A DNA stretch of 64,000 nucleotides from positions 777-64,776 of the forward strand of contig JAENRP010000193.1 of assembly GCA_024741835.1 (NCBI GenBank), in the 5' to 3' direction. The notes under the pieces were generated by a model. It did not search any database, had not been told where the DNA came from, and worked only from the letters and a program-made list of their open reading frames with translations. The position numbers and the translations under genes were made by a program. Each line of letters begins with the position of its first letter. Within the stretch, counting starts at the first letter, position 1. Positions 18,679-63,999 of the stretch are shown here, one piece after another. This stretch comes from Diplocarpon mali. Taxonomy: Eukaryota; Ascomycota; Leotiomycetes; Helotiales; Drepanopezizaceae.

Positions 18679-18701
18679 ACTTATAAGGTGGGACTAGGAG
18701 T
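18679..18701. repeat. Palindrome 1 (tandem cluster)
   Basis: A 23-mer, ACTTATAAGGT with GACTAGGAGT as the right arm. Decayed member of the family. Confidence 0.7.
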
Positions 18702-18743
18702 CAATTTTCCTAAAAGCGTTCCTTTATAAGACTATATAACTTA

Positions 18744-18766
18744 ACTTGCGGTCTAGGCCTAGGAGT
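18744..18766. repeat. Palindrome 2 (tandem cluster)
   Basis: A 23-mer, left arm ACTTGCGGTCT, right end GGCCTAGGAGT. In plus frame: T-C-G-L-G-L-G-V. Confidence 0.8.
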
Positions 18767-18808
18767 CGATCTAAAGAAAAACATTCCTTTATAAGACTAT
18801 ATAACCTA

Positions 18809-18831
18809 ACTTGCAGGGCGGGCCTAAGAGT
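18809..18831. repeat. Palindrome 3 (tandem cluster)
   Basis: A 23-mer, left arm ACTTGCAGGGC, right end GGCCTAAGAGT. In plus frame: T-C-R-A-G-L-R-V. Confidence 0.8.
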
Positions 18832-18849
18832 CGTCCTTAAGCCTACTAA

Positions 18850-19650
18850 GCCCTTACTATCTTTTATAACCTTAGTATATCTTTAAACGCTTTAAACTTT
18901 ACAACTATCTTTAATAGCTTTATAAATCCATTTATTACTATTCGATCGGTTAGGATATAGGTAATTAATAATTTGTTCTTTATAATAAGGTTGCAGATAA
19001 AGTAGTAAGTAATATTAATATATTTCGATCGCTTATATAAGTATGGATTCTTTACAAATGCAATTGCCTTTATATTATCTACTTAAAGATTAATATAGTT
19101 CCTATCTTATCTAATATACTTAGTAAAACCTATATCTTTTAGAACTTAGGCGATTTATAATCCTTACTTATAATTTAATAATATTAATATATATTCGGCT
19201 TTAGTGCTTATAGTAGCTATTGATTTCTACTTCTTACTTCCTTATAATATAGGTCTATTATATAGTACTACTACGCTTTTAGATATACTTTTCCGACCTT
19301 TTATATTTGCCTAATTAGAATTAGTATATACCTTAAGCTTTACGCTTATATATTTCATTAGTTTATATCTTATCTTTTATATAATTATCGATTAAAGGTA
19401 CCTTTTAAGTTGCTTAACTATATTTTTATATTAAATTGTCGGATCCTTTAAGTTCTAATTAAGTTGCCTAGTAATAAAGGCGATATCTGGTCTTATATAT
19501 ACTATAGTATATATAATTGCTCTAATATCCTATTAGTACTTCTTTAGATTTCCTATCGTGCAGAATAGGCGGAGTCTCCACTTATTCTGGAGACCCTCTA
19601 TGTGACTCTGCTAAGTCATAAACTCTCCCTTTTCTTTCCAAAGTCTCTTT
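18850..19650 (-). pseudogene. Ty1/copia RT-RNase H fragment, minus strand
   Basis: On the minus strand the text reads TIVYIRPDIAF, then KSIATISTKAEYISL, INL-VDNIKAIAF, NPYLYKRSKYIN and a DRIVINGFIKLL end. These are decayed forms of the copia RT-end 'TRPDIA' and RNase H motifs (ATSSTEAEY, DNxxAI, RSKHI, DxxADxxTKPL). The fragment faces the copia gag relic at 17.6-18.66 kb, so the two are not one collinear element. Stops and Ala/Thr-to-Ile changes fit RIP. Confidence 0.75.
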
Positions 19651-19659
19651 ACTATATAT

Positions 19660-21371
19660 ATACTAGATAATAATATAATTAATCATCTTCTCCTATATTT
19701 GCAAGCCTCTTAAGCGACCTAATAAAGGCCCTCCAGCCGACCGTACTATAGTTATAAGCCCTATAAGCACTTTAATATGCTTTCTCTTTGTATGCAACCG
19801 GCTAAAGGGCCCTTTAAGCTCCTAACCGACTTTTCGAGTATTTATAATAACTTAAAGGACCTTTACTTTCAATTAACAAATCTCCATTTTCTAATCGAAC
19901 CTTATTTGCAAATTCCATTTATATACCTAACCTTTTCACTAGACTCTATTCAATATGTCTAACTCTTTAAGCATCTTTAAGCCTTACTTTAATACTTTTG
20001 CCTTTTAAGTGAAGTAGTTTAATAAATATATATTCTTTATTAAGCTTTATAATATTACCATTTTTACCAATCTAAGACTTTTATTTAAGTCAATTATAAA
20101 GACTAAGCCTTAAGCTCCCTTTATATAGGAGCTTAAGGAATTGGAAATGGCTAACCTCTATATAATATATATAAGGTTATATAAAAAGTATATAGCGATT
20201 CTATTTAAATAGATTTACGCTCGCTTTTCCTTAAGAGATCTATTAAAGGCTCTTTTTCTATAGGCTTCTTATAAAGATATTAAGGATAAATATAAAATCT
20301 TAATAAAGGAGTACCATATACGTAAAAAGACTTAGAAGACCTAATGCAAATACTATAAACTACTCTTAGAATAGGTCTTTAAGACCGTCGATAGAACGCT
20401 TCTAGCTTCTGCGATAGCTTAAGTATAAATCTAAGCTAAGAAGCTCTCCTCTTTAATACTTAATAGAAATACTCCTATAAGTGGAACTACTACTAACGAC
20501 CTATGTGCTAATTTGGTAAACTAATAACTCTTACTTTAAGGCCTAGTATTTATTTTAAAGCGTGATATTGCGCCTTCTAATAAGGTTATTTAATCTTAAA
20601 TAAGGCTTTAATACTATAACGTACTATGCTAAGGTAAGACTAAGAGAACTAATACTTAGCAGTAGATCTAGGAGTAGTAGGAGGCGTACTGCCTAGTAGA
20701 ATAATACAATCTCTTTAAAATTAAAGGGAGATTAGGAGTTATTGACTTTTTAAACTTAATTATAATAAAGATTAATCTAAGTTAGGCGATTCGCTTAAAG
20801 GAGGAAATTATTACTAATAAGCAGATAGGAACCCTATATAAGTATAACTTAATATAGCTAAGCTGCGCCTTAGCAGGCATTGAATCTAATAGAGCGATTA
20901 ATAATAAAGGGCTAGCAGTTTTTACTACTTAAGAGTCTCTTTTAAATGCCGAAACCCTTTTGCAGGCTTTAGTAAGCAGCTCTCGAAATCGCTCTATAAG
21001 CTTTAAAAGGGAGATTAGGCCTAAGTGCCCTTATAAAGGCTTTAAAAATCACTATTAGAAGCCCTAGGACTATCGGAAACTATTATATACTATAGATAGG
21101 CGTAAGGAAAATATGAAAGTTCTCTCCTTGCAAGAGGAGGTCTTATAAATATAAAAGGCGTTAAACGCAGGAGATTAGTTTAAAGGTCTTTAAGCATAGC
21201 TTAAGGAGAATGATATTGCGGTAACAGCAATTGATAAATTTAAAGGAAAGGCTTTAGCCTCTAAGGAGGATGGTTTAAATAGTAAAAGGGAGAATTCACT
21301 AGTCTTTATAGTAATAGATCCCTTTACCTTTGACGCTTTTAAAGAATCGTTTAACGTCTATTACCTCTTTA
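19660..21371 (+). pseudogene. Copia-1, segment 1: leader and gag-like region
   Basis: The first visible part of the copia element that hosts all later insertions. A 61-codon open frame survives at 19777-19962. A gag-like text continues with many TAG/TAA codons, to a degraded zinc-knuckle area (CPYKGFKNHYQKPQDY) near 21.04 kb. The 5' LTR was not located; 19.56-19.77 kb is a candidate. At 21371 the frame (VYYLF) is broken by Gypsy-A copy 1 and resumes at 27732 as KLECHLL. Confidence 0.6.
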
Positions 21372-21663
21372 TGTAACGGATTATCACTATGTATAAGTTG
21401 TACCCCGGTTCGTACCCAGTTCGGCTATAGCTTGGCGCAATCTCAGTATAGGTCACGAACCGGGTTACCCCCGGTTGGCATCCGGTTTAGCTCCCTTTAA
21501 GCGAGTGACCCTCTTTTCTCTATATATATATTCTATACCCTTCCACTCCTTTAGGGCTTAGTAGTTATTGATTCTAAGTCATTACTAAGACGTTCTATTA
21601 GCATTACTATATAACTCGTACGCGTATTAGTGCTAAGCAAAGGTTATACTCCTAGTTATTATA
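21372..21663 (+). repeat. 5' LTR of Gypsy-A copy 1
   Basis: A 292-bp LTR. It starts TGTAACGG and ends TTATTATA, a C-to-T/G-to-A version of the consensus end TCGTCACA. Confidence 0.95.
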
Positions 21664-21999
21664 TTATTAATAACTCTTTCGCTTCGCTAGAGACAGCGTT
21701 ATAATACCTATTTATATTATTCCTAGTAGTCGACTAAAACCCTAATAAGTACGATAATATACTAAAAGACCTATACTAAGCTCCTGCTATAAGCTTAAAG
21801 AATAGTTCCTCCTATTACTTAGTCTTCAAAGACCCCTTGCTTTCCCTCCCTTTAGGAAGGTACTAATATCACCCTTAGTACCTTTCCTACCAACTCCCTA
21901 CTAGCTGATAATAATAGCCTTAAAGTCACTATATCATAAGCCGAACTAGACTCTCTATAGGCATGCCTAACGTCTATAGCAGATAAGCGTAATAGGCAT

Positions 22000-23250
22000 A
22001 GCTATAAGCTAAGTTCTATATACTAACAATTGATTAAATAAGAAAGAGATCTAAATAACCTTTAAAACGCCTTTAAAAGCATTTTAAGATTAATTGAGAA
22101 AACTCTAGCACTAGAACGACTCCCCTCTAGTTCACTTACGCGCCCTTAGCGCTCAATGGACTTCGACTTACCTCCTATTTCCTTTACCGCGCGCAGTAAG
22201 CGATGCAATAATTAAGACAATCCTTCTTTTGCTTCCCCTAACCGATATACTACCGGTTCGCCTCTAGCTTAGCAGCTAAACCTCTCCCGAATCTATAATA
22301 TACCGAACCTCACTTAAAAACTGTCTAATAGACGTGATTACCGCGCCAAACACTAGGAGGCCTACGTACTTAACAATTTAGAGCTTTACTACCTCTACTT
22401 TTGTAAGGAATAGGCCTGGCTCAACTACGTTTTAGATCAGACTAAGGGTATAGCTAAAGACTAGCTAACCCCTTAGGTACTTAATAGAGACGCCCGAATT
22501 ACTGCCGAAACCCTAGTAAGTCAACTTACTAAGTTCTTAACTAACCTAGTAGAACGCAAAGAAGCCGAGATCGAGTTTACTACCCTTTATATAAAGGCCA
22601 ATAAGTCTTTTTAGGAGTTCTACCTTAAGTTCTCCCGACTGGCCGCTATAGCAAAGATCGACGATAATAGTCGACTTCGTAGCGCCCTTAAGGAGAAAAT
22701 CCTAAAACGCCTCCAAACCCCCCTTATATAGAAGTAGCATAAGACTAGAACGTTAGATAAGTAGGTTACTGCTATCTAATAAGAAGACGCTAGATAGCGC
22801 GCTAAGAGGACGCTATATAATCAGATATAATATAAAGATAAATCAGGCATTAAGGCCAAGCCTAATCTTAGCAAGCCTGCTTAATAAGGAGATAATAATA
22901 AATTAAATTCCTTGCTAAGAAACTTTTCCGAATTGTATCCGAACCGACCTTAGTATAGCACCCCTGCCCTTAGCTTCGCTAAGTCCGGAACTCCCTCTTT
23001 TCCTCTGCGCTAGACTGATACCCCTAGCGCTCTCCCTCTTATAACTAATCGAAAAAATCAGTTTGATAAACGGCCGAAATCCCCTTCTATTACTTTTAAG
23101 TATTATAGCTCTTGCGTTAACAAGCTAGAGTATAATAGCTAAGGATAGAGTAGCGATAAAGAGGAGGACCCTAAGGCTGAATAAGATAATAGTAGCGCTC
23201 TCCTTCCCCCCTTAACTCTTAAGGGAAACGCCCCCGCCTAAGTAAAGCCT
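22000..23250 (+). pseudogene. Gypsy-A copy 1 gag relic
   Basis: A plus-strand frame reads as a helical gag protein, including ILRLIEKTLALERLPSSS and a capsid-like stretch, interrupted by TAG and TAA. The zinc-knuckle area near 23.1 kb is degraded. The same text is present in copy 2 at about 29.79-31.05 kb. Confidence 0.65.
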
Positions 23251-23299
23251 CCTTCTTAGGCGTACTTTATAATATACGATACCTCGATTTAAGAAACCT

Positions 23300-26200
23300 C
23301 TTTAGTAGCAATTCGATAACGAAACGGATCCTACTCTTAAAAAATGGTATTTCTTATAAGGTATTAGTATTGATTGATATAGGCGCTAATAGGTATGCTT
23401 TAATTAATTCGGCGTTACTTAAATCTTTATCTTCTTTCCTTAAACCATTGATTCGCATACTTCTTATACCCTTTCTAATTAAAGGATATAACGGTTCTTA
23501 AGGTAGTACTATCACTTATTATATACTGCTTAATCTATATATCAATTAGCGAATTCAATTTTTTACTCCCTTTCTTATTACCAACCTTAGCAACTATAAA
23601 GTGATTTTAAGAAGAGCATAGCTTAAGGAGTATAAAGTTTCTATTAATTATACTTCTCGCAAGCTGACCTAGCCTGATTCCTATCCTCCTACTGTCTCTT
23701 TTATAAGGAATATTAAAATCACTAATACTAAACGGCAAAACTTAGATTAATACTATTAGCGAAATGCAACTTAATGCGATATAGTACTAGAACGGTCCCT
23801 TTTTAAGTATGAAGCTCAACGCTAAGAAACCCTCTCCTAACTCCCTCCTAAATTACCTCTTATTCTAATTAAATACTCTTTTACTAATTCTACCCTAACT
23901 CCACCTTAAGTCAAGGGTATTACCTTTTCCAAGGACCACTCCTGCAATATATTAATTATAAAGCAAGAGCTTAATATGATTAAGCCTAACTCAGCTCCCT
24001 TTCCTATTTCGACCCTAAAACGCATTTACAATTAGATAGCAAAGTGCAAAATTCCCCTTTCTTCTTTAAATATATACGCAATTTCAGCCTATGCTTTTCG
24101 TATAATAGCTAGGAATTAGTAAGGCGTAGAGCTCTTTAGCACCTTATTTTATAAAATTGATCGATTGATTCGAGATAACTAAGAATATTAGGCCTAATAA
24201 CGCGAAACCGATTCCCTCTTAAACCGATACTATAATAGAGAAGTTTTAATAGCTATTTTAACTGCCTTCTTTAAACCAATTGAAAAACCGATTCCAGCCG
24301 CTTACGAAGAGTACTGCTATATATTTTCGAAAGCCGCTTCTAATGCGTTACCGCCCTATCGACCTTATAATCATAAAATCGAGCTTATAGCCGAAGGTGC
24401 TTAAAAGGCCCTTTAATACTCCCCCTTATATAAGATATCTATACCTAAACTGGAAATAGTAAAGGCGTACCTTATTAATAACCTTAATAAAGGATTTATC
24501 AAGGCCTCCTCTGCCTCTTATGCTACGCTAGTACTATTTATAAAAAAGGCCAATAGTTCCTTACGATTCTATATTAACTACTATATGCTTAATAACCTTA
24601 CTTATAAAGATCGATACCCCTTACCCCTAATTGATAAGACCCTAGCTCGATTAGCCGGCGCTTAGATTTTTATAAAGCTTAATATATAGCAGGCTTTCTA
24701 TCGAATCCGAATAGACCCTGAATCTAAAGAGCTTACTACTTTTAGAACTTAGTATAGCGCGTACAAGTATAAGGTGCTCCCTTTTAGCCTTACTAATAGC
24801 CCTGCTACCTATCAAAGGTATATAAACGATATCCTTTTCGATTACCTTAATGATTTTTATATAGCCTACTTAAATAATATCCTTATTTACTCTACCAACC
24901 GACTTAATTATAAATCGCATATAAAACAGGTTCTTTAGCAATTATCGGATATAGGACTATAGGCCGACCTAAAGAAGTGTGAGTTTAATATTATAAAGAC
25001 TAAGTACCTTAGCTTTATAATCACTACTAAAGGCGTTTAGGTTAACCTTAATAAGGTAGTAGTAATAGAGAATTAGACCTACCCCTTTACTATAAAGGGT
25101 ATTCAATCATTCTTTAGTTTTTGCAACTTTTATTATTGTTTTATTTAAGACTATAGTCTTATTACTGCCTTCTTAGTGCACCTTACTAAGAATAACGTTC
25201 CCTTCTAATTTACCTCTAAATGCAAGCAAAGCTTCTTATAGCTGCAAGAAGCTCTTATACATACCCTAATCCTTTAGTACTATAAGTAAGACCTCCCTTA
25301 TATACTAGAAACTAATGCCTTTGATAGTATAATCGCTTTTATATTATCGTAGCAATATAGGTCCAAATAGCTCCCGGTTGCTTACTATAGTAAGACTATA
25401 GTACCGGCTGAGCTAAACTATGCTATATATAATAAGGAGATACTAGCTATTATTCGATCATTTGGCTATTTTAAAGCCGAGCTTATAGGAGTACCCTATT
25501 GAATCGTAGTATATATAGATCATAAAGCGCTTGAGTACTTTATAATTATAAAAAACCTTAGTTCTTAATAGGCCCGCTAGGCCGAGCTTCTCTCTAAATA
25601 TAATTTTACGATTACCTACCGACCTAGCTCCGAAAACCCTCTTGCCGACGCCTTAACTTACTGCGTTGATAAGTTAGAGGATTAGAATATAATAAAACGC
25701 AATAACCGCCTTATGATATTATTATGCTAGGATCAGATTGACCTTTGAATCCTCTTTAAATAGCTTTGTAAATAGACTATAGTAGAGAACCTAGTCTCTA
25801 TTAAAGAGGTTTCGGCCTTCTCCTTTGCTTTTTATATTATCGATTAAGTACTAGCCGCTAATCGATAATATAGGCCTTACTAGGTCTATTGCTAGGCAGT
25901 CCTTTAAAATAGGTCCGATATAGCCCTAACTAAGGCTAACCCTTAAACGATAGAAGGAGATTTGCTTCTTTATTAAAGTAAACTAGTAGTACTAGATATA
26001 GATCACCTTTATATGTTACTTATATAGGAGGTCTATAATCAAATTACTATTGCGCATTTAAGCGCGCGTAAAACCTACTAGCTTCTCTCCTTATAGTACT
26101 ATTAGCCGAATCTACGCCGATACGTCTCCTAGTACTATAAGAACTGCTATACCTATAGATAAAGCAAAGTCCCTTATAATAAGAAACCTAGTCTTCTTTA

Positions 26201-27420
26201 ACCCTTCCCAGTACTAAGCCGACCTTAAGAGCATATAATTATAGATTATATGAGTTTTAATAAAGATAAGCATAGCTATAATAACGTTCTTGTAATTATT
26301 AATCGGTTTAGTAAGTAGGCAATCTCAATACCCTACTGAAAGACTACCGATTTATGTTAATTAGCCTAATTCTATATATACTATATATATCGCTACTTTA
26401 ATCCCCTCTTAACAATTACCTTAGACCAAGGCCTTTAATTCATCTTAAGCTTTTAGAAAGCTTTTACCTCCGTTTTAGGTACGAAACTAACCCTTAATTC
26501 GGCCTACTACCTTTAAACCGACAGCTAAACTGAAAACTATAATTAGTACCTTACGCAACGCCTCTGCCCCTTTGTTAGCTACTATTAAGACGATTAGAGC
26601 GAATTCTTGCTTATAATAGATTTCGCCTAGCTAACTCTCTCCTATGACTCCCTTAGTGGCTTATTGCCATTTGAAGTAGTGTATAAGTACGCTCTGCGTA
26701 CTAATTAGGACTAGAAGCTTAATATACCTAATTTGGAGTCCCCTTCTTAGAAACTTAATTAATAAAACGCCTTTAAGTACTCTATAAGACATTATAAAGC
26801 TTAGACCCTTGCTAAATCTCATATCCTTAAGGCTTAAGAACGCATGCGAAACGCTACTAATACCTCTTGCCGCTTAGCTACTTTCGAAGTTGGCGATTAA
26901 GTATACTTAAATATACGTCCTTACCTTATAGATAGGCCTTTTAAAAAGCTCAGCTTCTCTAAAGCTAGCCTGTTTAAGATAGTAGAGAAAGTGTTTGATT
27001 TATACTAATTAAAGCTACCTAACTCTATAAAGGTATATGACGTCTTCTACCTAAGTCGCCTTTAAAGGGACCTTAGTACCCCTTTAAATGGTTAAGTAAA
27101 TAAACCCCCTCTTGCTATTAATATTATAAAAGAATAAGAATATAAAGTAAAGACCTTACTTATTATATAGAAGCAAGCTAGTACGCTTATATACTGCGCC
27201 TCATAGGTTGGCCGCGATATTGATTTAAAATAGTACTTAGCCTTTAATTTTATATATACGCCTTTTAAGCTTTGCGAATTTTATTAGGAAAATCCAGACC
27301 TCCTAGGCCCGCTTGTAAGGCTTCCTAATTAGATATAGGCCTATACTAATAGTATAGATGATTATAATAAGATAGGTGATAATAAACCTATAGTTAGACG
27401 CTTAAGGATAAGCTTTTTTC
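23300..27420 (+). pseudogene. Gypsy-A copy 1 pol relic
   Basis: Domains in order: protease with DIGANRYAL near 23375; RT from about 24.35 kb with KDRYPLPLID, LPFSLTN-PATYQR and YLNN in place of YLDD; RNase H near 25.3-25.65 kb; integrase with a zinc-binding HLSARKTYQLL...NCYTC region near 26.05-26.16 kb; and a chromodomain-like tail (YLASNFIYTPFKLREF-like) near 27.24 kb. Every domain carries nonsense codons of the TAG/TAA type expected from RIP. The protein cannot be made. Confidence 0.85.
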
Positions 27421-27434
27421 AAAAGGGGAGGTGA
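27421..27434 (+). other. Polypurine tract of Gypsy-A copy 1
   Basis: AAAAGGGGAGGTGA directly precedes the 3' LTR, as needed for plus-strand priming. The equivalent in copy 2 is AAAAGGGGGGATAA at 35205-35218. Confidence 0.8.
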
Positions 27435-27726
27435 TATAATAGATTATTACTATATATAGGTTATACCCTAGTTTATACCTAGTTTAGCTATAGCTTAGCG
27501 CAATCTTAGTATAGGTTACAAACTGGGTTACCCTTAGTTAGCATCCGGTTCGGCTTTCCTTAAGCGGGTGACCCTCTTTTCTCTATATATATATTCTATG
27601 CCCTTCCACTCCTTTAAGGCTTAATAGTTATTGATTCTAAGTTATTACTAAAACGTTCTATTAGCATTGCTATATAACTCGTACGCGTATCGGTGCCGAG
27701 CAGAGGTTATACTCCCAGTTGTCATA
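27435..27726 (+). repeat. 3' LTR of Gypsy-A copy 1
   Basis: A 292-bp LTR. The start is TATAATAG where copy 2's 5' LTR has TGTGACGG; all differences are G-to-A or C-to-T. It ends GTTGTCATA. Confidence 0.95.
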
Positions 27727-29155
27727 CTTTAAGCTAGAATGCCACCTGCTCTCTTTAAGTACGCTCTTTGATAATTGCGTAATTACTTATATTATTAATT
27801 CGAAGGATTTACTTATTATAAGTACCTTTAAGCCTTCTGACAACTTATAGTAATATATTAAAGTAGGTACCTTAAGACTCTTAATCATTAGGAAAGGTAA
27901 TAGATATATAGTAGACTCTCTTTTATAGCGTAATAGCTCTCTTATAGGAATAACGCTTTGCAATATTGCTATTATAAAGGAGTTTACTACTAATATTATC
28001 TTAAAGAGGCTTCTTATAGATAAGGGTTTTTAATACTCTAAGGTAGACCTTACTTTGCGCTTTAAGAGCATTAGAGACTTTATAAAGCAAGCTTAATTAA
28101 AGCGTTATTATAATCTCATTTTCTTTAAATATAAGCCTATTAACTATTTAAATCTCTTAAATATACTTTAATATAACTTCTCTGCTTTAATAGCATTCCT
28201 TATAGCTAAGATAACACTTTATAATAGGTTTTAATCTAGCTATATACCTATTAAGGTGCGGGATAATAATGCGTATATATAATACCTTTGCGCTAGCTAC
28301 CTAGGCGCAAAGGCTCTTTAAGTGCTAATTAAGTACGCTAAGGGAGTAAAGATCAAAGGAATACAAAGGCTAAAGTGCCTTATATACGCAATAGCGTTTG
28401 CTAGGCAAGTTATTTCTTGCGCTACCTTTAAGAACCGATCTTTAAGGCCCTTCTTTAAGATCTCCTAGGATCTCTTTGACTTTTTAAACAACTTATATAA
28501 TAGTTACTTATAAGTTCTTTTAATTAAAGACAAGTATAGTAGTATACTTTAGATATTCCTATTAAGATCGAAGGGCAGAGACGTAGTTATAAAGGTCCTC
28601 TAGGCCTTTAAAGCATAGGTAAAACGCTAATATAGGCTTTCTATTTGCAAGATTAAGCAAAATAATAACACTTTAATAATCTCCTTAAGGGAAGACTCTT
28701 TTATAGAGTACTAAAGATAGGTAAAAGAGGAGGGAATCGATTTAGAGCTTACTTTTACTTATATATACTAACCTAATAGAGGTATAGAGCGAGTAGGAAG
28801 GGAGTTGATTAAACGTTCTATTAAAATAAGGATCTACGCCAGGCTTCTAGCAAGCCTTTGGCCAGAGGTTATAAAGGCTGCTATATACCTTTATAATATC
28901 TCCTTACTTACTAAGAAGAAGATGATCTTATTAAGCAAGGCTCTTTATAATTAGTTTAAGTAGTATTTTCGATTCTATAAGCTACTACTTATTAAGCAGA
29001 TAATAGCAAGCTTAAAGCCTAACTAGAGTTACGTTTATATATATAGCGCTTGCGCATACCCTTTAATTAAAGAGAGAGAGGTAAGGAGGGACTGCTAAAC
29101 CTTTAAAATTGAACTATAAAAGCACTTAAGTTATTTAATTAAATATATTACCTTT
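27727..29155 (+). pseudogene. Copia-1, segment 2: protease, pre-integrase and integrase core
   Basis: The copia frame resumes after Gypsy-A copy 1. It reads TLFDNCVITYIINSKDL, a decayed protease DSGATxHITN motif, then IKVGTLRL and a gag-pre-integrase region (KRLLIDKGF-YSKVDLTLRF). The integrase core follows with FTYIYQPNRGIERVGREL and LWPEVIKAAIYLYNISLL, the copia 'TPQxNGxAER' region and C-terminal helix. The segment ends KYITF at 29155, where Gypsy-A copy 2 is inserted. Confidence 0.85.
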
Positions 29156-29447
29156 TGTGACGGATTGTCACTATATATAGGTTGTACCCCGGTTCGTACC
29201 CGGTTCGGCTATAGCTTGGCGCAATCTCGGTATAGGTTACAAACCGGGTTACCCTTAGTTAGTATCCGGTTCGGCTCCCCTTAAGCGGGTGATCCTCTTT
29301 TCTTTATATATATATTCTATACCCTTCTACTCCTTTAGGGCTTAGTAGTTATTAATTTTAAATTATTACTAAGACGTTCTATTAATATTACTATATAACT
29401 CGTACGCGTATTAGTGCTAAGTAAAGGTTATACTCCTAATTGTCATA
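29156..29447 (+). repeat. 5' LTR of Gypsy-A copy 2
   Basis: A 292-bp LTR, TGTGACGG...TTGTCATA. The least mutated 5' end among the four Gypsy-A LTRs in the window. Confidence 0.95.
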
Positions 29448-29789
29448 TTATTAATAACTCTTTTACTTCGCTAGAGACGGTATTATAATACCTATTTATA
29501 TTATTCCTAGTAGTCGACCGAAACCCTAACGAGTATAATAATATACCAGAAGACCTATACTAAGCTCCTGCTATAAGCTTAAAGAATAGTTCCTCTTATT
29601 ACTTAGTCTTCAAAGACCCCTCGCTCTCCCCCCCTTTAGGGAGGTGCTAATATCACCCTTAGTACCTTTCCTACCAACTCCCTACTAGCTAACGATAATA
29701 GCCTTAAAGTCACTATATTATAAGCCGAACTAGACTCCTTATAAGCATACCTAACGTCTATAGTAGATAAGCGTAATAGGCATAGCCGT

Positions 29790-31060: not shown

Positions 31061-31072
31061 CGATACCTCGAT

Positions 31073-35200: not shown

Positions 35201-35218
35201 TTTCAAAAGGGGGGATAA

Positions 35219-36670: not shown

Positions 36671-36685
36671 TTTTATATACTTTTC

Positions 36686-48720: not shown

Positions 48721-48739
48721 TCAACTCTTTAATAAAAGG

Positions 48740-52670: not shown

Positions 52671-52999
52671 TAAAAATATAAATAAAAAAAAGGAGAAAAA
52701 TAATAAAAATAGAAAAATAATAACGCTAGGCCAACTGCCTCCTCCCTTTACAACTCCTCCAACCCCTTCTCCTTTGCGCTTAAGGAGACAAGCTCTAACT
52801 CTATTCTAAAGCTAGAGCTTGCCTCTTAAATACGCCCTCGCTTAGAATAACCCTGACCTCCTCCTTTTGCCGCTGCTAGCGCCGCCCTACTAGCCGCCGC
52901 GCCTGACGCTACCCTTGCTACTACAAGCCCCTCTCCTCTTATAAGAGACTCTGCTACTATAGCGGTCTGCTCTACCGACGCAGCAATAGACCTTAGGAG

Positions 53000-53690
53000 G
53001 CCTAGTATAGTTCGGCTGGATTGCTCTAACCTTACTAGCTAGGACTTAATAAGGTTACTACGCTCCTATTAGAAAGTCAGCGGTCGATTTAATACTAATT
53101 CGGGTTTAACTTATAGCAACTGTCGCCTAGATCCCCTTTAGCTAGCTTGCTATAGCCTTAGCTATAAAGTAGAGCTCCGTAAGGCTAGCACGCTCTAGTT
53201 AGGAGCGGCTAGTCAAAGCCTTTGCGCTGGCTATTAGCAGGAGGTTGATAAGAATCCGGGCGCGCTAGACCGCCTCCTAATAGAGCATCTCGCAGTTCCC
53301 TGCCGAAACTACACGCGCATCCTTATCGTTGTTATTATCATCCCCCTTTTGCTACTAAGGAGCCTTCCCCTGCTACTCCTTAAAGGCCGCGGATAGCGCT
53401 GCAAACTCCTTACTAATATAGGAGGGAAGTTATAAATAAGTATTAGCGCGACTAAGTCTCTAGACTCGATTTAGGATACTTATAAGGATGCACTCCGCCT
53501 TTTGCTCCTAGCACTAGTAGCACTTCTTACTACGCTTTGATTCAAACTCGCACTTATACGTAATATCGCGCATAAGGCGCCGTACGTACTAGTAATAATA
53601 AACGCAATAGGCTATCGCAAGGGCGCCCGATAGCAGGGGAATTGGCACTATACGTATTAGACGCGATTCGACCCTAGACTAGGGCAAACT
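53000..53690 (-). pseudogene. Antisense ORF relic in the 3' part of Gypsy-B
   Basis: On the minus strand, opposite in sense to gag-pol, a frame reads PIPLLSGALAIAYCVYYY, then YVRRLMRDITYKCEFESKRS, KKCY-C-EQKAEC and a helical tail (LERASLTELYFIAKAIAS). Cysteines follow C-x9-C-x2-C-x6-C. Stops are TAG or TAA, at positions where CAG or TGG would have been mutated. As I recall, similar Cys-bearing antisense frames occur in other fungal gypsy elements, so this is probably a real former gene of unknown function. Confidence 0.5.
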
Positions 53691-53961
53691 TACTTATAGT
53701 AGTTAGTAGTAGTAGTAGTAATTGTTTCTACTACTATACATTAGCCTTACGCTATAGTAGTAGGAGTAGGAGACCTATGCGATTATATGCAGTTATTATA
53801 CTAAGGAAGGAAGATCCTGCAAGAGGAAAAACAAATTTAAGTATATAATACGACTTGCGCTAAACCAAATATAAAACAGTACTATTCGCATAATAACGCG
53901 CTAAGTACATTACTACATAAAAATCATTATAACCTACTAACGCTTATAGGCAAGCGTTTTC

Positions 53962-53976
53962 AAAGGGGGGAGGTAG
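53962..53976 (+). other. Polypurine tract of Gypsy-B
   Basis: AAAGGGGGGAGGTAG sits immediately 5' of the 3' LTR. Confidence 0.85.
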
Positions 53977-54283
53977 TATAATAGCTGCACCTCCACTTAG
54001 TGCAATTACCTAGGAGTATAGCATTCTAAGGTTTCGCAATCTCGATTCAATGCAGGGTTTTCTCAAATCGACCCTAAAGGTGCAAAAGGATATTCTTACA
54101 TAATATTATATAAGCGGGCAATAGAGCTCCTAGCTACTATATATATAAGGAAGAAGGGCTCTCCCCTAAGGAGGGTTTTCTAACTTCTTCGTTTCCTTCG
54201 TATTAGACCTATAGAATACGCCTTTTGCACCACTTCTTGCTCTTATACTTGATCTTGCACTTTGGCGGTTCTGTGTCGTTATA
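53977..54283 (+). repeat. 3' LTR of Gypsy-B
   Basis: A 307-bp LTR, starting TATAATAGCTGCACC and ending GTCGTTATA; differences from the 5' LTR are nearly all transitions. It is followed by target duplication CTAAG. Confidence 0.95.
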
Positions 54284-55487
54284 CTAAGGACTTCGGCCAT
54301 TAGAATCAGTAATAAAACTAACAATTTCCATCGATAGAAGATAGTATTATAACTTCAGACTAACTATTGCTCCTACCCTTTTAAATCGTATAAGTACCTA
54401 GTCCAGGTTCTAAATATATTCTATTATAAATCATTATATGCTAAAGAGAACTTCTTTATAGTTATAGAATGATCTTAATCCTTTTACTCCTATATCGTCT
54501 ATATAAGGGAGCGTAATATTAGGTATGCAATCTACTAGTATCTTATAGATTACTTAGACAAATTGAGCGATCGAATTTATAGCCCCTTAAGGTAATCTTA
54601 TCATTTGAAGTAGCTTAAGAGGGGTTTGAATTGCTATTATATCTCTTAATTTAATATTAAGAATAAATTGGTTATATCTAAAGAAGAAGTTAATAAGAGA
54701 ACTGCAGGTTAATCCTACGAATTTATTCAAGAACTCATCTATATTTAAAGGAACATTAGCGTCTTTAACAGTTACTTAGTTCATCTCTACTACTACTATT
54801 ATTAGTCTATAAGTTCCCTTCTCCTTCTTAGCAACTAAGAACTATTTATTCCTATAAAGGCTATTACAGAACTTAAGAACACCTTGCTTTAGCCTATCCT
54901 TTAACATTTCGATTACCTTTTCTTAAAGAGCTTTAAGGACTTCGAATGTTTTCTCTTGCTAGGCTTCGTAGGGTATTATCTTAATCTTAATATAAGGCGT
55001 AACCTCTTTTTAAATCTAGCTAAGTTCCGTCCAGTCAAAAGCTAAGGCGCCCTTTCGATTTATTAAGGTTTTATAAAGTAATTTGCGTTCTTACTCTATT
55101 AAGTCTTCTCCAATTTTCAGTATATTAAAACGTTCTTTTATTAGTCGATATCCGATAGGTTTATTAGAAAATCTGCCTATAATAAACTTATCAAATTTGC
55201 CACCCGGCTTCAGAGGTCGAAGCTTCTTATCTTATTTAAACCAATCATCTAGTCCTTTAGACTTTAAGCTATTAGAGATTCCCTAATCCACCAGTCGTAT
55301 TTTATTAGCCTTGCTTTTATATATAGTTCAAATATTAGCTAGTACTATACTTCTCTACTTCTTTCCTTTTTTATTAAATCCTATAAAACGATCCGAATTT
55401 TCCTTTTTAAAAATAAATAAAAGATTTTCTAAATCGTTAATTTAAAGTGTATAAATGGAAATATTATTAGTAATTTTATTGTTTTTC

Positions 55488-55510
55488 ACTCGCAGGTCCG
55501 GCCTATAAGT
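55488..55510. repeat. Palindrome 14 (pol, before RT)
   Basis: Left arm ACTCGCAGGTC. Minus frame: T-Y-R-P-D-L-R-V after ILKNLKT and before KNNKITN. Confidence 0.88.
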
Positions 55511-55649: not shown

Positions 55650-55672
55650 ACTCTTAGTTTAAGACCGCAAGT
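55650..55672. repeat. Palindrome 15 (pol, after protease)
   Basis: Minus frame: T-C-G-L-K-L-R-V after LNNSDL. The same site in the right copy is 63977-63999. Confidence 0.85.
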
Positions 55673-57099: not shown

Positions 57100-58570
57100 A
57101 AGGATAGCTTCTAGCCTAAGATCCCTAATGCAAAGTATCCTATACTTATTAATATATATAACCCTAGTATTAATAAAACGAAGGAAAAGAGGGCAATTAT
57201 TGCAATACTTATATAAAGCGCAGTTAGGTTCTTTATTATTGCAAAAGTTGCAGATTAGTTGTCTTCTATTGCCGATTCCTTAGTACCCTATAGTATTAAT
57301 ATTAGTAGAGTGCTAATTAGGATCAATTCCTCCTTCTTTAACTAGTTATTGCGTTCTTATATTAGCTAGTTATTCCAAATGATAAGAAGCAGGAGTCTGA
57401 TAATAGGAACCACTAGGTTGGCTTATAGTAGCTAAGTTTTATCTATTACCAAATTAGGAAATATGCTATTTTTCCTATAAGAGATTATTAATTCTAGTTT
57501 CTAAGCTTTAGATTCGGAGTTTTGCAAATTAGGTCTTAAGTTCCTTAATTCTAGGGTTAGATCTCACTCCTAGGTTAGGACTGCAAGTAAAAGGTATAAC
57601 TATTAGGTTCTTCGTTGCCTCCTTTATAACTTCTAAAGCCTTTAAATGTTCTTGGACCAGGCTCTTAAGGTCTTTAGTATAAAAGGGAGTAAGGGCTTTT
57701 TCCTACTCTATAGTATTAATAGTTCTCTTATTAAGATCTGATTTTAAAGCAAAGGCCGAGAATTCCTTAAATGAGGCAAAGGTTATAAGGTCTTGCTTAT
57801 TAATCCTAAAATGCTTAATGATCTTATTTCAAAGGCCAATAAGTAATCTAAGTAAGAAAAGGCAGCCTCTTTTAACTTCGCTAAGTATTTTCTAGCTAAT
57901 TAAGGTATTTGATATATAAGTAAAAGTCCGATAGTAGTTTTTAAATTCCTTAGGAGTATAAGTAATTAAAATAAATTCCTTTAAGAAAGCTAGGGTATTG
58001 CGAATCTGCTATCTATTAAATTTGCGAAATTCAGATTTAAGGGCCTTAATAAGGAGTTCCTATAAACTATAAGTTTTCCATTCGGGGAGGGACTTGATAA
58101 TATCCTTACTTATATAATCATAGTAGTAAGGAAGTCGAGAAATCATATCCTCTTATATAATACTAAAATCGTAATAAGTTTCCTTATATTACTTAAGGAA
58201 ATTAGTAATATTAGCGCTTATAAAGTAAGGAGCGCTAGAGGAATTAGGGAGGGAGAAGTAATTAGTAATAGCCTTAAATGCGGCTATTATCGTTTTATAC
58301 TAACCGTCTGAGTTAATAGAATCCATAGGAGGCAAAGGGGAAGCTTTGATATTACAAGATTGATTGCTAGGAGGAGTACTTTAAAATTCAAAAGGGCTTA
58401 AAGAGCGTTTAGAATTCGAGTTAATCTTAAAGTGACTAGGACGAGTTTGAAAAGATTTAAATAAAGGGTTAGTAAAAAGTTTAAAATTGTTATTATTATT
58501 AGTGTTTTTAAGCGTTAATATTAAAAAAGTAAGTGGTAGTCTTAAGTTGTTTAAGGATATCTTTTTATCC
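57100..58570 (-). pseudogene. Giant element gag relic, left copy
   Basis: The minus-strand mirror of the gag relic in the right copy (about 61.1-62.48 kb). It contains the Cys cluster NFCNNKEPNC (near 57.24 kb) and a palindrome at 57566-57588. Stops are of the Gln-to-stop type. Another palindrome at 58575 lies just upstream, in the leader or at the gag N-terminus. Confidence 0.7.
57566..57588. repeat. Palindrome 16 (gag, left copy)
   Basis: Mirror of palindrome 19 in the right copy; both lie in the middle of gag in the octapeptide frame. Confidence 0.85.
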
Positions 58571-58574
58571 TCCT

Positions 58575-58597
58575 ACTTATAGGCTAAGCCTAGGAGT
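58575..58597. repeat. Palindrome 17 (leader or gag N-terminus, left copy)
   Basis: Core AGGCTAAGCCTAGG. The gag start codon is uncertain, so coding status is unknown. Confidence 0.85.
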
Positions 58598-59271
58598 AGA
58601 ATTCCGGATTCTACTAAAAGTTTAATCTGAGTTTATTAAGAGATTTTAAGTAGGTGCTAAATAGCTAATAGGAGCGTTGCAACTAATCGCAATAAGATAA
58701 GGTTTACCTAATCTAAGACCAATTTCCAAGATAAGGTTTATATCTAAGATTCTTCTTAGCCTTTAGGCTAATTCCTATTAATCTTTAGAATAAAGGAGTC
58801 TTTAAAGACGATTCTAAGGCAATTTTTAAAGTTCTATTAAGCTAAGGCGGCTGAATTATCAGATTCGGATTTCTAAAGATTCTAAGGAAGCACTTCCTAT
58901 TAGAGTTTGCGCTTAGTATTACTTAAGTACTCGAAACTACCGCTGTTTAAGATTGCTATTATAGGGTTTATCAAACTTTTCATACCGAAAAGCCGAAAAT
59001 TCCAAGAATCTCAGAGTTAAGGAAGAAAATAGGGGTTTTTAAAGCAAAGCCGAAAAGGGAAAATCTAAGGTTATTAATAGTTGCTAAATGAAAATCGATA
59101 GTTCTAAGTAACTAAGCGATTAAGGATAAGGGTTTTAGAGTTGATCAAAATGCTATAAGTATTTTAAAGACGTATTTTAAAGGCCGGTCTCTTATCTGCA
59201 AACTAAGAGATTGATAAGGTTGTATAAGGATAGAAATCTTAAGAAATCAGTCCCTGCGTAAGTCACTAATA

Positions 59272-59512
59272 TAAAACTAAAGGGAGATAATATAAGAATA
59301 GGCCTAAGGGAAGACTTAAAAATAAAAGGAGAAAGCACTATAAGCGGGCTCTCTTAGATAAGATATTAAAAACAAGTCCTAAGTATAAGGTATATTCAAT
59401 ACTATGGCGACACGCGCTATCTCTATATATAGAAGGTGGCCCTTTTATCCTCCTACCGGCCTACGCCGATCATATGATATATATCATAAGACCTATCCAT
59501 CTTAGGTCTCCA
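59272..59512 (-). repeat. 5' LTR of the giant element, left copy
   Basis: A 241-bp LTR. On the minus strand it starts TGGAGACC and ends AGTTTTA. The copia-1 target duplication TATTA follows at 59513-59517. Confidence 0.9.
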
Positions 59513-60133
59513 TATTATAAGAAGCAATTTAATAAAAGGAGTAGGCCTTAATAATATAATACCTTAAGTTGTAATATTAGCTTAAAGACTATAGGCTTAA
59601 GAGATAAAGCTACCTAGACTCCTAAAGGAACCTTTAGCAATAATAAAAATAGAGGAAGAGACCTATAGAAAAAAGCATAAGAAGGAACTCCCTCTTCTTA
59701 AGTAAAAGAGGATAAGACGCTTAAGCGTTAAGCAATAAGAGACTTTAAAAGTATACGCTACTACTTTAGAGTATATAATCTCTTAAAGCAATATTAATTT
59801 ACCTTGCTCCTTATATACGTAGGAGTTTATATTAACCTTCTAAGTAAATAAATAAATAAGAGAGGATAGGAAGGACTATTTGACAGTTTATATAATTATT
59901 AAAGCTGCAGTTAATAGTTAGGTAAAGGATAGAGCGCAGTCTCTTAACTGCCTATAGTACTAAGGCTCTTTACTAAAGCCTTTAAAAGGATGGCAAGACC
60001 TAAAGAAGTACCCTTTTAGCAAACGATTTAAAGAAAGAGGGCGCTAGGAGATTAGGAATTTAAAATTTTAAAGTTGCTAGAAAATCGTATAAAGGGACTA
60101 CTTAAAGCCTCTGCCAATACTATTAAAATAGTA
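59513..60133 (+). pseudogene. Copia-1, segment 4: linker between integrase and RT
   Basis: This 621-bp piece between the two giant copies continues the copia-1 frame: YYKKQFNKRSRP, then TPKGTFSNNKNRGRDL, VKEDKTLKR and IRYYFRVYNLLKQY. It is highly charged, as expected of the linker before copia RT, and has Gln-to-stop changes. No RT motif is reached before the second giant copy begins at 60134, so the copia RT must lie beyond the window. Confidence 0.65.
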
Positions 60134-60377
60134 TAAAGACTTGAGATAGATAGGTCTTGTGATATATATCATATAATCGGCGTAGGCCGGTAGGAGGATA
60201 AAAGGGCTACCTTCTATATATAGAGATAGTACGTATCGCTATAGTACTAAATATACCCTATACTTAGGACTTATTCCTAATATCTTATTTAAGAGAGCCT
60301 GCTTATAGTGCTTCCTCCTTTTGTTTTTAGGTCTTCCCTTAGGCCTATTCTTATATTATCTCCTTTCTAAAGTTTTA
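60134..60377 (+). repeat. 5' LTR of the giant element, right copy
   Basis: About 244 bp, starting TAAAGACTTGAG (TGGAGACCTAAG in the left copy) and ending AGTTTTA. It is two or three bases longer than the other two LTRs near its 3' end. Confidence 0.85.
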
Positions 60378-61051
60378 TATTAATAACTTACGTAAGGACC
60401 GATTTCTTAAGATTTCCATTCCTATATAACCTTATCGATCTCTTAGTTTGCAGATAAGAGACTGGCCTTTAAAATATATCTTTAAAACACTTATAGCATT
60501 TTAATTAACTTTAAAACCCTTATCCTTAATTGCTTAATTATTTAGAATTATCGATTTTTATTTAGCAACTATTAATAACCTTAGACTTTCTCTTTTCAGC
60601 TTTGCTTTAAAAACCCTTATTCTCTTCCTTAACTTTAAGATTTTCGGAATTTTCAGCTTCCTAGTATAAAAAGTTTAGCAAACCTTATAATAGCAATCTC
60701 AAATAGCAGTAGTTTTAAGTACTTAAGTAATACTAAGTGCAAACTCTAATTAGAAGTACCTCCTTAGAATCCTTAGAAATCCGAATCTAATAATTCAGCT
60801 GCCTTAATTTAATAAAACTCTAAAAATTGCTTTAGAATTGTCTCTAAAGACCCCTTTATTCTAAAGACTAATAAGAATTGGCCTAAAGGCTAAGAAGAAT
60901 CTTAAATATAAACCTTATCTTAGAAATTAGTCTTAGATTAAGTAAACCTTATCTTATTGCAATTAGTTATAATGCTTCTATTAATTATTTAATACCTACT
61001 TAAAATCTTTTAGCAAACTCGGATTAAACTTTTAGTAGAATCCGAAATTCT

Positions 61052-61074
61052 ACTCCTAAGCCTAGCCTATAAGT
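61052..61074. repeat. Palindrome 18 (leader or gag N-terminus, right copy)
   Basis: Mirror of palindrome 17. Its octapeptide frame is not the frame of downstream gag. Confidence 0.85.
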
Positions 61075-61099
61075 AGAAGGATAAAAAGATATCCTTAAA

Positions 61100-62600
61100 T
61101 AACTTAGGACTACTACTTACTTTTTTAATATTAACGCTTAAAAATACTAATAATAATAACAATTTTAAACTTTTCATTAACCCTTTATCTGAATCTTTTC
61201 AAACTCGTCTTAATCATTCTAAGATTAACTCAGATTCTAAACGCTCTTTAAGCCCTTTTAAATCTTAAAGTACTCCTCTTAGCAATTAATCTTATAATAT
61301 TAAAGCTTCCCCTTTGCCTCCTATAGATTCTATTAACTTAAACAGTTAGTATAAAATAATAATAGCTGTATTTAAAGCTATTACTAATCACTTTCCCCTC
61401 TTTAATTCCTCTAGCGCTCCTCACTTTATAAGCGCTAATATTACTAATTTCCTTAAGTAATATAAGGAAACTTATTACAATTTTAGTATTATATAAAAGG
61501 ATATGATTTCTCGACTTCCTTACTATTATAACTATATAAGTAAAGATATTATTAAATCCTTCCTTAAATGGAAAACGTATAGTTTATAAGAACTCCTTAT
61601 TAAGGCTCTTAAGTCTGAATTCTAAGAATTTAATAAATAGCAGATTTATAATACCCTGGCTTTCTTAAAGGAATTTATTCTAATCACTTATACTCTTAAG
61701 GAACTTAAAAACTACTATTAGACTTTTACTTATATATCAAATACCTTAATTAATTAGAAAATACTTAGCAAAGTTGAAAGAGGCCGCCTTTTCTTACTTA
61801 GATTACCTACTAGCCTTTAAAATAAGATTATTAAGTATTTTAAGATTAATAAGTAAGACCCTATAACCTTTGCCTTATTTAAGGAATTCTTAGCCTTTGC
61901 TTTAAAATCAGATCTTAGTAAGAGAACTATTAATACTATAGAGTAGGAAAAAGCCTTTACTCTATCTTATATTAAAGACTTTAAAAGCTTAGTCTAAGAA
62001 CACTCGAAAGCTTTAGAAGTTATAAAAGAGGTAAAGAAGAACCTAGTAGTTATACCTTTTACTCGCGGGCCTAACCTAGGAGTAAGATCCAACCTTAGAA
62101 TTAAGAAACTTAAGACCTAATTTGCAAAACTCTAAATCTAAAGCTTAGAAATTAGAATTAATAATCTCTTATAAGAAAAATAGCATATTCCCTAGTTTAG
62201 TAATAGATAAAACTCAGCTACTATAAGCTAACCTAGTAGTTTCTATTATCAAACTCTTGCTTCTTATCATTCGGAATAACCAGCTAATATAAGAATATAA
62301 TAGCTAGCTAAAGAAGGAGGAATTAATCCTAACTAGCACTCTACTAATATTAATACTATAGGGTATTAAGGAAACGGTAATAGAAGACGACTAATTTGCA
62401 ACTTTTGCAATAATAAAGAACCTAACTGCGCTTTATATAAGTATTATAACAATTGCCCTCTTTTCCTTTGTTTTATTAATACTAAGGTTATATATATTAA
62501 TAAGTATAAGATGCTTTGCATTAAGGATCTTAGGCCAAAAGCTATCCTTATTAAAAAGCACTAGAATCACTTATAGTTATAGACTATTTGAACGATGATA
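61100..62600 (+). pseudogene. Giant element gag relic, right copy
   Basis: The plus-strand frame starts in an Asn run and reads FKLFINPLSESFQTRLNHSK. A capsid-like helical text follows (NFLKQYKETYYNFS, LPTSLQNKIIKYFK with stop changes). After the palindrome at 62061 the same frame continues RSNLRIKKLKT. A Cys cluster NFCNNKEPNC near 62.4 kb is the likely nucleic-acid-binding end, although its spacing is not a classic CCHC knuckle. Confidence 0.72.
62061..62083. repeat. Palindrome 19 (gag, right copy)
   Basis: Plus frame: T-R-G-P-N-L-G-V between NLVVIPF and RSNLRIKK; the gag frame is the same on both sides. Confidence 0.9.
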
Positions 62601-62639
62601 TATAGTATAAAATAGGATAAGAATTTAGTCGAACGATAG

Positions 62640-63880
62640 CATATTATAGATATAAATGCTAAAATCCTAACTTATATATATATAGGTCCAATTAGTAATC
62701 TACCTAAGGGAGTTCTTAAGGACCTAGCTTCTAATCAAACAGCTATAGAAGTTAAAGGCATCTCTATCTTAGGATAGATTAATAATAATATTTCAGCTAA
62801 TATTAATGCTACTTCTATATCTAAGAACCCTTGGAATTCTCAGCGTCCTTCTAAATCTTCCACTCTACTAATACTAATAAAACCAGCCAAAGTCTAGAAA
62901 TCAGCGTATACAACTTAGGAATCTTAATATAGAATCCAAATACTAAAAGATATCTAATAATCTAAAACCGCAATAGACGAGGATAAAGCCGATATAATAG
63001 ACGAATTGATCAAAGATATAATAGATAAAGATGGCTTTAAGCTTAAAGATTAAGAAGTTGAAGTTATTATATAGACCCTTGACCTTAAGCGAAAGAGACA
63101 GATATTAAAATAGGAAAAATTTATTAACAAATACGCTAGTTTAACCGCAATAGAGAAAGCCGTAGAGAATATTATAACCTAGCAAATTAACCTTATATTT
63201 AAAGACCTATTTAATTTGACTAGACACTTTAATAAAGTGCTAGGAAAGTATATTCCAATTACCTTTAAAGATTTAAATAATAATAAGGAAATGGAAATTA
63301 TAATATAAAAGAACTTTAAGAAGCACTTAGCCTTAATCAAATATCTTTAGATTGCAGAAAACAAAGGAACCTAAAGGTACTATAATATTATGGCAATAGC
63401 TTTAATATCTTAGAATATTAACCGAAATTATTCAGTAGTTGTAATAAAAAGCCTTATTATTATTTATTTAATAGAAAAATCAGTTAAAGCAAAGGCTCTG
63501 ATCGATTATAGTTTAGAAGTTAATATAATAATTAGAAAAGTGGCAGAAATGGCTTAATTAACAATTATTAGCGATCGACTCCTTATTTATTCGACTATCT
63601 TTAGATTAAAATACAATTTTAATAGATAGGTGAAAAATGTAAAAGTTAGAGTTAAAGGAATTGTTAATTATACTAACTTTCTAATAATAGAGAATTCTTT
63701 AAATGATATTCTTTTAAGAATGCCCTTTATTTTAGAATCTTAGCTAATATTTAACTATCTTAAAGATAGGCTTATAAAAGCTAGCCTTTAAAATATAGAT
63801 CGATCCTTAAAAGGACAAATGGTTATCGCAAGAGATATAGTCGAATTCTAAAACAAGATTTTAAAAAACGATTAGCTAGC
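62640..63880 (+). pseudogene. Giant element protease-like region, right copy
   Basis: The plus-strand text includes VKAKALIDYSLEVNIIIRKV near 63.5 kb, a decayed form of the aspartic protease 'ALIDxGxxxNfI' motif. It then reads KVRVKGIVNYTNFLIIENSL and ILLRMPFIL, matching the flap and C-terminal hydrophobic strand (ILGxPFL) of gypsy proteases. The catalytic Asp is present but the following Gly is lost. Confidence 0.65.
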
Positions 63881-63976
63881 ATAAAGGCTAGGCTTAATGC
63901 TAGTAAAAGAAGGTACCTAGCGAGGAGTTATAGCAAAAGAAAGGTAAGTTTATCGATTTTAAATAATAGTGATTTA

Positions 63977-63999
63977 ACTTATAGTCCTAGACTAGGAGT
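63977..63999. repeat. Palindrome 20 (pol, right copy)
   Basis: Plus frame: T-Y-S-P-R-L-G-V after LNNSDL. Mirror of palindrome 15. Confidence 0.85.

Follow-up and report, generated by a model that had tools for sequence, protein, structure and literature searches.

The window analysed here, a stretch of 64,000 nucleotides from the fungus Diplocarpon mali (assembly GCA_024741835.1, contig JAENRP010000193.1, positions 777 to 64,776; G000:C193:777-64776 in the 49.4-Mb assembly of 676 contigs that was searched as a whole), holds a family of short GC-rich near-palindromes, hereafter units, most of which lie in a giant element with ends resembling long terminal repeats (LTRs). Between 17 and 64 kb, the window has a GC content of 0.33, compared to 0.55 in the first 17 kb, a TpA/ApT ratio of 1.5 (0.63 in the first 17 kb) and an observed/expected CpA ratio of 0.41 (1.05 in the first 17 kb), which is the signature of repeat-induced point mutation (RIP). 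As the core of the unit contains neither CpA nor TpG when unaltered by RIP (un-RIPed), the units are conspicuous as GC-rich in these AT-rich relics. A first-pass annotation, made from the sequence alone, had proposed twenty GC-rich palindromes of 23 bp in the 64-kb window, and all 20 were present at the coordinates given. With a RIP-tolerant score, in which C-to-T and G-to-A changes are forgiven, the window yielded 20 matches at a score of ≤5.5, whereas shuffled sequences averaged 0.67 (dinucleotide shuffles in 1-kb blocks, n=15). Seventeen units lie between positions 36686 and 63999 in two giant elements, as had been claimed (14 in the first copy and three in the second).

The units and elements of the window are given below. 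Flanks and element matches served for a manual assignment of the site names, as well as of the 22-26 site representatives used in the comparisons, because clustering by flank similarity over-merged the copies. The octapeptide phase is the frame in which a unit encodes a conserved peptide of eight residues.

18679..18701, degenerate unit of the non-coding array S6, 3' of a Copia reverse transcriptase (RT); spacing 65 bp, not a multiple of three
18744..18766, unit of array S6
18809..18831, unit of array S6
36178..36558, LTR-like end of the giant element, matching 59267-59665 and 60107-60383
36686..36708, unit S20, near the LTR-like end of the giant element
37111..37133, unit S18, C-terminal site of open reading frame (ORF) U1, near the unit at 41001 of ORF U2 and not aligned with it
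37933..37955, unit S17, ORF U1, aligned with the U2 unit at 41886
39163..39185, unit S16, ORF U1, absent from U2
39349..39371, unit S15, ORF U1, with perfectly symmetric arms, aligned with the U2 unit at 43272
37116..40391, minus strand, ORF U1, paralogous to U2 and in tandem with it (identity 29% over 1118 columns, E 4e-102)
41001..41023, unit S12, C-terminal site of ORF U2; the intact protein P0002 of Diplocarpon coronariae has TREPGPRV at the same place
41886..41908, unit S13, ORF U2; P0002 has TRGPGPRV at the same place
43272..43294, unit S14, ORF U2; P0002 has TRGPGPGV at the same place
40826..44140, minus strand, ORF U2, RIP-damaged, a relative of P0002
44535..44557, unit S21, minus-strand text ahead of U2, octapeptide phase by fewest stops
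45970..45992, unit S19, minus-strand pol-like text, probable RNase H-integrase linker (domains assigned by eye), in another frame
46736..54287, Gypsy element G3, nested within the giant element, LTRs of 313 bp, no unit at ≤5.5
55488..55510, unit S22, gag-side minus-strand text, octapeptide phase by stop counts
55650..55672, unit S23, gag-side minus-strand text, octapeptide phase by stop counts
57566..57588, unit S11, gag-side minus-strand text, octapeptide phase probable by stop counts
58575..58597, unit S10, near the 5' end, without coding periodicity, probably 5' untranslated region
59267..59665, LTR-like end of the first copy of the giant element
60107..60383, LTR-like end of the second, head-to-head copy
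61052..61074, unit of the inverted second copy, site equal to that at 58575
62061..62083, unit of the inverted second copy, site equal to that at 57566
63977..63999, unit of the second copy, site equal to that at 55650, at the window end
21359..27803, plus strand, Gypsy element G1, homologous in pol to the unit-bearing Gypsy-B, no unit at ≤5.5
29146..35580, plus strand, Gypsy element G2, homologue of Gypsy-B pol, no unit at ≤5.5

ORFs U1 and U2 lie in tandem at 37116-44140 on the minus strand inside the giant LTR element and are paralogues of about 1,100 residues each. Among about 7,990 scored candidates, the sole relative of U2 was P0002, an intact protein of 1105 residues from D. coronariae; unlike this protein, the U2 copies scored in the present genome had internal stops in 42 of 42 cases. 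Pfam revealed no family for P0001, P0002 and two short pieces, a search with the U2 protein found no chain in the PDB, and the AlphaFold model of the U2 protein (mean pLDDT 26.5) was unusable. Two pairs of units could be aligned between the paralogues (S14 with S15 and S13 with S17), the C-terminal ones (S12 and S18) being near each other and unaligned. Transversions between U1 and U2 amounted to 5 of 46 in the units compared to 980 of 3156 elsewhere (P 0.0013), a difference that is biased upward as the units were recognised by their likeness; at third positions alone, 3 of 14 differed vs. 40%, which is not significant (P 0.12). From this comparison of paralogous sequences, the units look old.

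In its un-RIPed form, the 23-bp core reads ACTC(C/G)CGG(G/T)CCNGG(C/A)CCG(C/G)GAGT. The length of 23 bp proposed at first holds for this core, but conserved flanks extend 6 bp further on each side: reading outward, the flank consensus of the 26 site representatives is S-R-A-A-T-Y, weaker than the core and symmetric, with a purine at position 2 in 52 of 52 flanks, and a simulated G-test gave p ≤0.0006 for positions 1-6, 0.25 for position 7 and 0.013 for position 8. The conserved object is one of about 35 bp, made up of the 23-bp core and 6 bp on each side.

The description of the unit as a palindrome also stood in part, as it is a near-palindrome, but perfect symmetry is weakened because a C-arm is paired with a G-arm at position 5 in 15 of the 22 site representatives, which are hence imperfect. 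Arm agreement at this position was 6 of 22 compared to 11.5 expected (P 0.015), whereas at positions 9 and 10 it was at chance level, with no covariation. Compensatory change between the arms, as expected of a functional RNA hairpin, was looked for in these representatives and none was found. As the arms do not covary, base pairing between them is not what selection keeps; an RNA hairpin was thus rejected as the conserved object, folding giving it weak support as well (the hairpin of the unit was predicted in two of four contexts). These data bear on the explanation that a shared DNA or RNA signal, such as a protein-binding dyad or a packaging or pausing hairpin, is kept by selection at fixed places. 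Dyad symmetry, the presence of 14 units within one giant element and the likeness of old paralogues at their units agree with such a signal, but the uncompensated arms (positions 5 and 9), the hairpin predicted in just half of the contexts and the variation from one to four units between copies of the best sampled site argue against it, and we consider it very unlikely.

Units in coding sequences nearly always encode the Pro/Gly-rich octapeptide T-[P/R]-G-P-G-P-[R/G]-V (12 residues with the flanks). The copy singled out as the best in the first-pass annotation, TRRPGLRV, is indeed this octapeptide, although its sequence is a RIP-altered form of TRGPGPRV or TPGPGPRV. Of 11 independent coding sites with a firm frame, 10 used the octapeptide phase (P = 1.3e-4 with three phases taken as equal, 0.006 with two), namely S1-S5, S7, S16 and the pairs S12+S18, S13+S17 and S14+S15, counted once each, against S19; counting S12 and S18 as one site despite their being unaligned lowers the number of sites. 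Seven giant-element copies are in the octapeptide phase of U1 and U2 on the minus strand, with the frame given by homology to the intact protein. Four further sites favoured the same phase by stop count, as seen when this phase was compared to the other two minus-strand phases at 44535 (6 stops vs. 11 and 8), 55488 (2 vs. 10 and 8), 55650 (1 vs. 12 and 12) and 57566 (6 vs. 11 and 9), whereas the stop count at 62061, taken by itself, did not favour it. The unit at 45970 (S19) was clearly in another frame (1 stop vs. 8 and 13), and a 103-residue piece of this text from locus L028 had no match in Pfam; S10 (58575 and 61052) showed neither a preference for the octapeptide phase nor coding periodicity. 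Judged from the homology of U1 and U2 and the stop counts, the proposal that at least twelve of fourteen units in coding relics follow this frame is about right. The broader claim of one phase in either orientation across gag, pol and the two extra ORFs, with selection for the reading frame, is likewise supported; both DNA orientations were observed at coding sites, with TP..RV at S1, S3, S5 and S7 and TR..GV at S4 and S14.

The spacings within arrays follow the same pattern. At coding sites, 69 of 69 were multiples of three (values from 39 to 90), compared to three of nine in non-coding arrays of the S6 type (spacings 61, 65 and 66), and all eight spacings of locus L083, counted apart, were also multiples of three. 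The commonest array periods corresponded to 13-18 residues. As the copies share descent, these counts are not independent events.

A conserved functional peptide, either a linker or a polyprotein processing site needed by unrelated retroelements, whose DNA would be alike through common origin and purifying selection, could account for several of these features. Coding units lie near domain boundaries with one phase kept, the G/T and C/A alternatives at positions 9 and 15 leave glycine unchanged, U1 and U2 differ less within the units than around them (with the upward bias already mentioned), and related peptides appear in P0034 and P0004, outside the records labelled Diplocarpon. However, the same unit is found as DNA in the non-coding ends S6 (where spacings are mostly not multiples of three), S8 and S10, S19 reads another frame, and the octapeptide is absent from most aligned relatives. 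Moreover, the synonymous positions 3 and 21 showed zero transversions across the 22 site representatives, and the third positions of U1 and U2 are weak evidence either way. We therefore consider a functional peptide quite unlikely as the explanation of the family.

When the whole genome was searched for the arms, as the first-pass annotation had suggested, the family proved to be genome-wide and to extend beyond the giant element. The palindrome pattern matched 722 places with ≤3 mismatches, compared to 0 for the reversed pattern; a stricter family pattern gave 301 matches, the exact un-RIPed 23-mer 22, the T9 variant 179 (forward count) and the un-RIPed 17-bp core 59 places vs. 1. No match was detected in the prokaryote genome and viral contig collections scanned for the palindrome. 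A total of 282 units were read in 125 sources (271 distinct contexts), the loci being a non-random sample taken from the search listings and 20 of the sources being chosen through flank homology.

At least four families of LTR elements bear the unit, at about 20 different sites, which lie in linkers between domains and in non-coding ends. In the giant element, these are a 5' site, sites on the gag side and in the pol-like text, and those of the two paralogues U1 and U2; beyond it, another Gypsy family and two Copia-type families bear units. Gypsy-B has sites in the N-terminal part of gag, in the protease/RT gap and in the RNase H/integrase gap. Copia-a has a first site ahead of a protease-like motif (L026; identified by eye, no Pfam match), a second in a linker ahead of AT-hook-like text (L095) and a third, non-coding, 1.9-2.0 kb downstream of the second in the contigs that list both. 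In Copia-c (L083), eight recognisable units are arrayed between Pol_BBD and gag_pre-integrs, the latter match being below the curated cut-off, and the family also has the non-coding array S6. The text KRGRPPGSKNK, or a near-match of it, which we take to be akin to an AT-hook motif, was seen downstream of S5 in L095 and L117, next to the array of Copia units. In L047 and other loci of S8, the non-coding site of Copia-a, one side of the unit is directly adjoined by a run of T whose length varies. The three Gypsy elements of the window, G1, G2 and G3, are homologues of Gypsy-B over pol and are all without a unit at a score of ≤5.5; one match of score 6.0 in G2, at 33252, is at chance level.

For 280 of the 282 units read, the flanks had a match in a fetched locus of a different contig; the two exceptions are inside the giant element. 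In an earlier set of 105 sources, 238 of 240 units had repeated flanks, with the same two exceptions, overlapping loci being able to match in that set; repeated flanks alone do not prove a retrotransposon for every locus. No unit in a host gene was detected among the 282, so that the Rickettsia-like insertion into host genes envisaged at first was not seen in this sample. A pattern with GC-rich flanks, designed for host-gene copies, gave 0 matches and is an invalid test, since the unit's own flanks are AT-rich. Of more weight are the un-RIPed cores, 50 of 59 of which were read, all 50 in families already seen: host-gene copies, escaping RIP, would be over-represented among them, which makes random genomic insertion unlikely.

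The same counts bear on a DNA unit mobilised in trans, similar to miniature inverted-repeat transposable elements or to repetitive extragenic palindromic (REP) sequences, in which a transposase encoded elsewhere moves the palindrome and the retrotransposon copies simply became numerous. The dispersal of the unit, its two orientations and the symmetric S-R-A-A-T-Y flanks, which resemble a palindromic target or end, agree with such a mechanism. In contrast, no unit was found in single-copy DNA among those read, un-RIPed host-gene insertions should be enriched among the cores just described, and no constant target-site duplication was apparent by eye, so we regard mobilisation in trans as unlikely.

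Evidence for movement comes from the dispersal of one unit over many places, coding as well as non-coding, of both Copia and Gypsy elements, and from the comparison of more distant relatives. The octapeptide is present in the intact D. coronariae proteins P0002, P0006, P0007 and P0010, of which the Gypsy proteins P0006, P0007 and P0010 belong to the nearest relatives of another element with units. Together with P0002, they point to D. coronariae or a close relative as the host. In an alignment of 17 rows, a good octapeptide was missing in 11 of the 13 Gypsy relatives not labelled Diplocarpon, most of these 13 being records without a species name and some rows not spanning every site. Homologues without the octapeptide include P0018 from Drepanopeziza brunnea, P0005, P0008, P0011-P0013 and others; G1-G3 of the window, which have no unit, and U2, which has none at S16, count on the same side. 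Among the records not labelled Diplocarpon, P0034 carries TREPGPRV in the protease-RT linker, at a place that differs from that in Gypsy-B, and P0004 carries TREPGARV in the RNase H-integrase linker; from these two protein sequences, the unit may reach beyond Diplocarpon. Weaker look-alikes in P0009 and P0014 are at chance level (2.65 such hits per shuffle of 120 proteins). Within families, tandem number was the sole change seen; it varied at several sites, in coding arrays by steps that are multiples of three.

On balance, we favour with some reserve the explanation that the unit is an old, in-frame, near-palindromic repeat restricted to retroelements, which was likely copied between unrelated Copia and Gypsy elements and kept where the frame was preserved. 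A stronger form, which we put forward tentatively and with slightly less than even confidence, is that of a parasite of parasites, a unit of 23-35 bp living only on LTR retrotransposons, spreading in the fungal nucleus between Copia and Gypsy elements and landing in frame in linkers irrespective of its orientation, since both strands give nearly the same octapeptide. In the favoured explanation, the unit would have moved between elements, with a vehicle probably tied to the retroelement life cycle instead of free genomic transposition, because repeated DNA is where the copies read are located. Candidate vehicles are a jump in the course of reverse transcription and cDNA repair at the GC-rich dyad. 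Copying would be followed by tandem expansion and then by filtering through frame and linker tolerance; the flexible linkers between domains in which the octapeptide falls would be the reason for its tolerance, and the unit would survive RIP because of its core without CpA or TpG.

Several results weigh against this copying between elements. Site S16 was occupied in five of five aligned U1 copies, although U2 lacks it; S12 and S13 were both present in the seven of seven U2 loci that span them, L020 being degraded; and of 20 copies of the Copia site S5, 19 had one to three units, none was empty and one (L114) was broken at the palindrome's midpoint. Among the close copies compared, no site was found occupied in one and empty in another. 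Units at the same sites with none empty is the very pattern that the first-pass annotation had named as contrary to mobility, although it was observed here only among close relatives. The proposed movement is upheld at a distance, by homologues without the unit (P0018 and the 11 of 13 relatives), whereas recent mobility is not, as empty sites are lacking. No consistent target-site duplication was seen by eye, there being no empty DNA site for comparison, and the divergence of the linker alignments is too great for an insertion to be placed at base level. The two orientations are unlike the outcome of a simple sense-to-sense switch of RNA template; point changes (positions 5 and 19) could produce them. 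The loci were, in addition, chosen non-randomly, and no trans-acting factor or donor was found, a RAYT transposase and a larger element ending in the 11-bp arms never having been searched for.

Sites that looked empty in L023, L024, L020 and the U1 copies were found to contain RIP-degraded units and were rejected as such. In locus L114 (G000:C232:2390-2790), a Copia copy ends at the centre of the palindrome and is followed by unrelated sequence; from this locus, the dyad of the palindrome may act as a point of breakage or insertion.

Neurospora PstI palindromes and yeast GC clusters are GC-rich mobile palindromes of fungal mitochondria and are mainly non-coding. The unit is similar to them in being short and GC-rich in AT-rich DNA, but it lies in LTR retrotransposons, mostly in coding linkers. 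It also shares with bacterial REP and GTAG-tagged repeats, described as high-copy palindromes of 20-40 bp (PMC3733652), a small size and a high copy number, whereas REPs are extragenic and prokaryotic and most framed sites of the unit are coding. Closer parallels are the Rickettsia palindromic elements (RPEs), dispersed palindromic repeats of about 150 bp that encode, in frame, a conserved peptide in unrelated proteins (PMC10969869). The likeness lies in a dispersed palindrome that gives one conserved peptide in frame in several unrelated proteins, here of retroelement genes; in contrast to RPEs, which are about 100-150 bp long and found in bacterial metabolic genes, the unit has a 23-bp core (35 bp with flanks) and is found in a fungus, in repeated DNA that is mainly LTR retrotransposons, and the host-gene insertions typical of RPEs were absent from the units read.

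Palindromic amphipathic repeat coding elements (PARCELs) of unicellular microbes encode an amphipathic motif of 25 residues, often accompanied by membrane-targeting sequences, according to Roske et al. (2010, PMC2996958). They resemble the unit in their tandem in-frame repeats of variable number and dyad-symmetric coding DNA, and they are linked to mobile elements in some taxa (PMC2996958). However, the unit encodes 8-12 Pro/Gly-rich residues in retroelement linkers and not an amphipathic motif of 25 residues. As it lacks defining features of both RPEs and PARCELs, the unit works like them without being either. Palindromic coding inserts in frame had been described from Rickettsia (RPEs) and, as PARCELs, from unicellular microbes. 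No description of a counterpart in fungal retrotransposons was found in the open-licence literature of PubMed Central, and a term search of the D. coronariae genome paper (PMC11527701) returned 0 occurrences of 'palindrom'.

If the unit is confined to repeated DNA, as in the copies read, and mainly to LTR retrotransposons, this would mean that selfish elements may host smaller repeats able to copy themselves from one superfamily to another and to reshape polyprotein linkers; if it has been copied between unrelated retrotransposons, it would be a hitch-hiker of genomic parasites. In that case, its hundreds of copies, in two orientations, on RIP-marked backgrounds and with intact relatives, would form a natural insertion series, useful to determine at which places the polyproteins of retroelements accept peptides and by what means short sequences move from one co-resident element to another.

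Finally, a low-complexity repeat rich in CAG/CCG was observed at 1377-1931, in the GC-rich part of the window.

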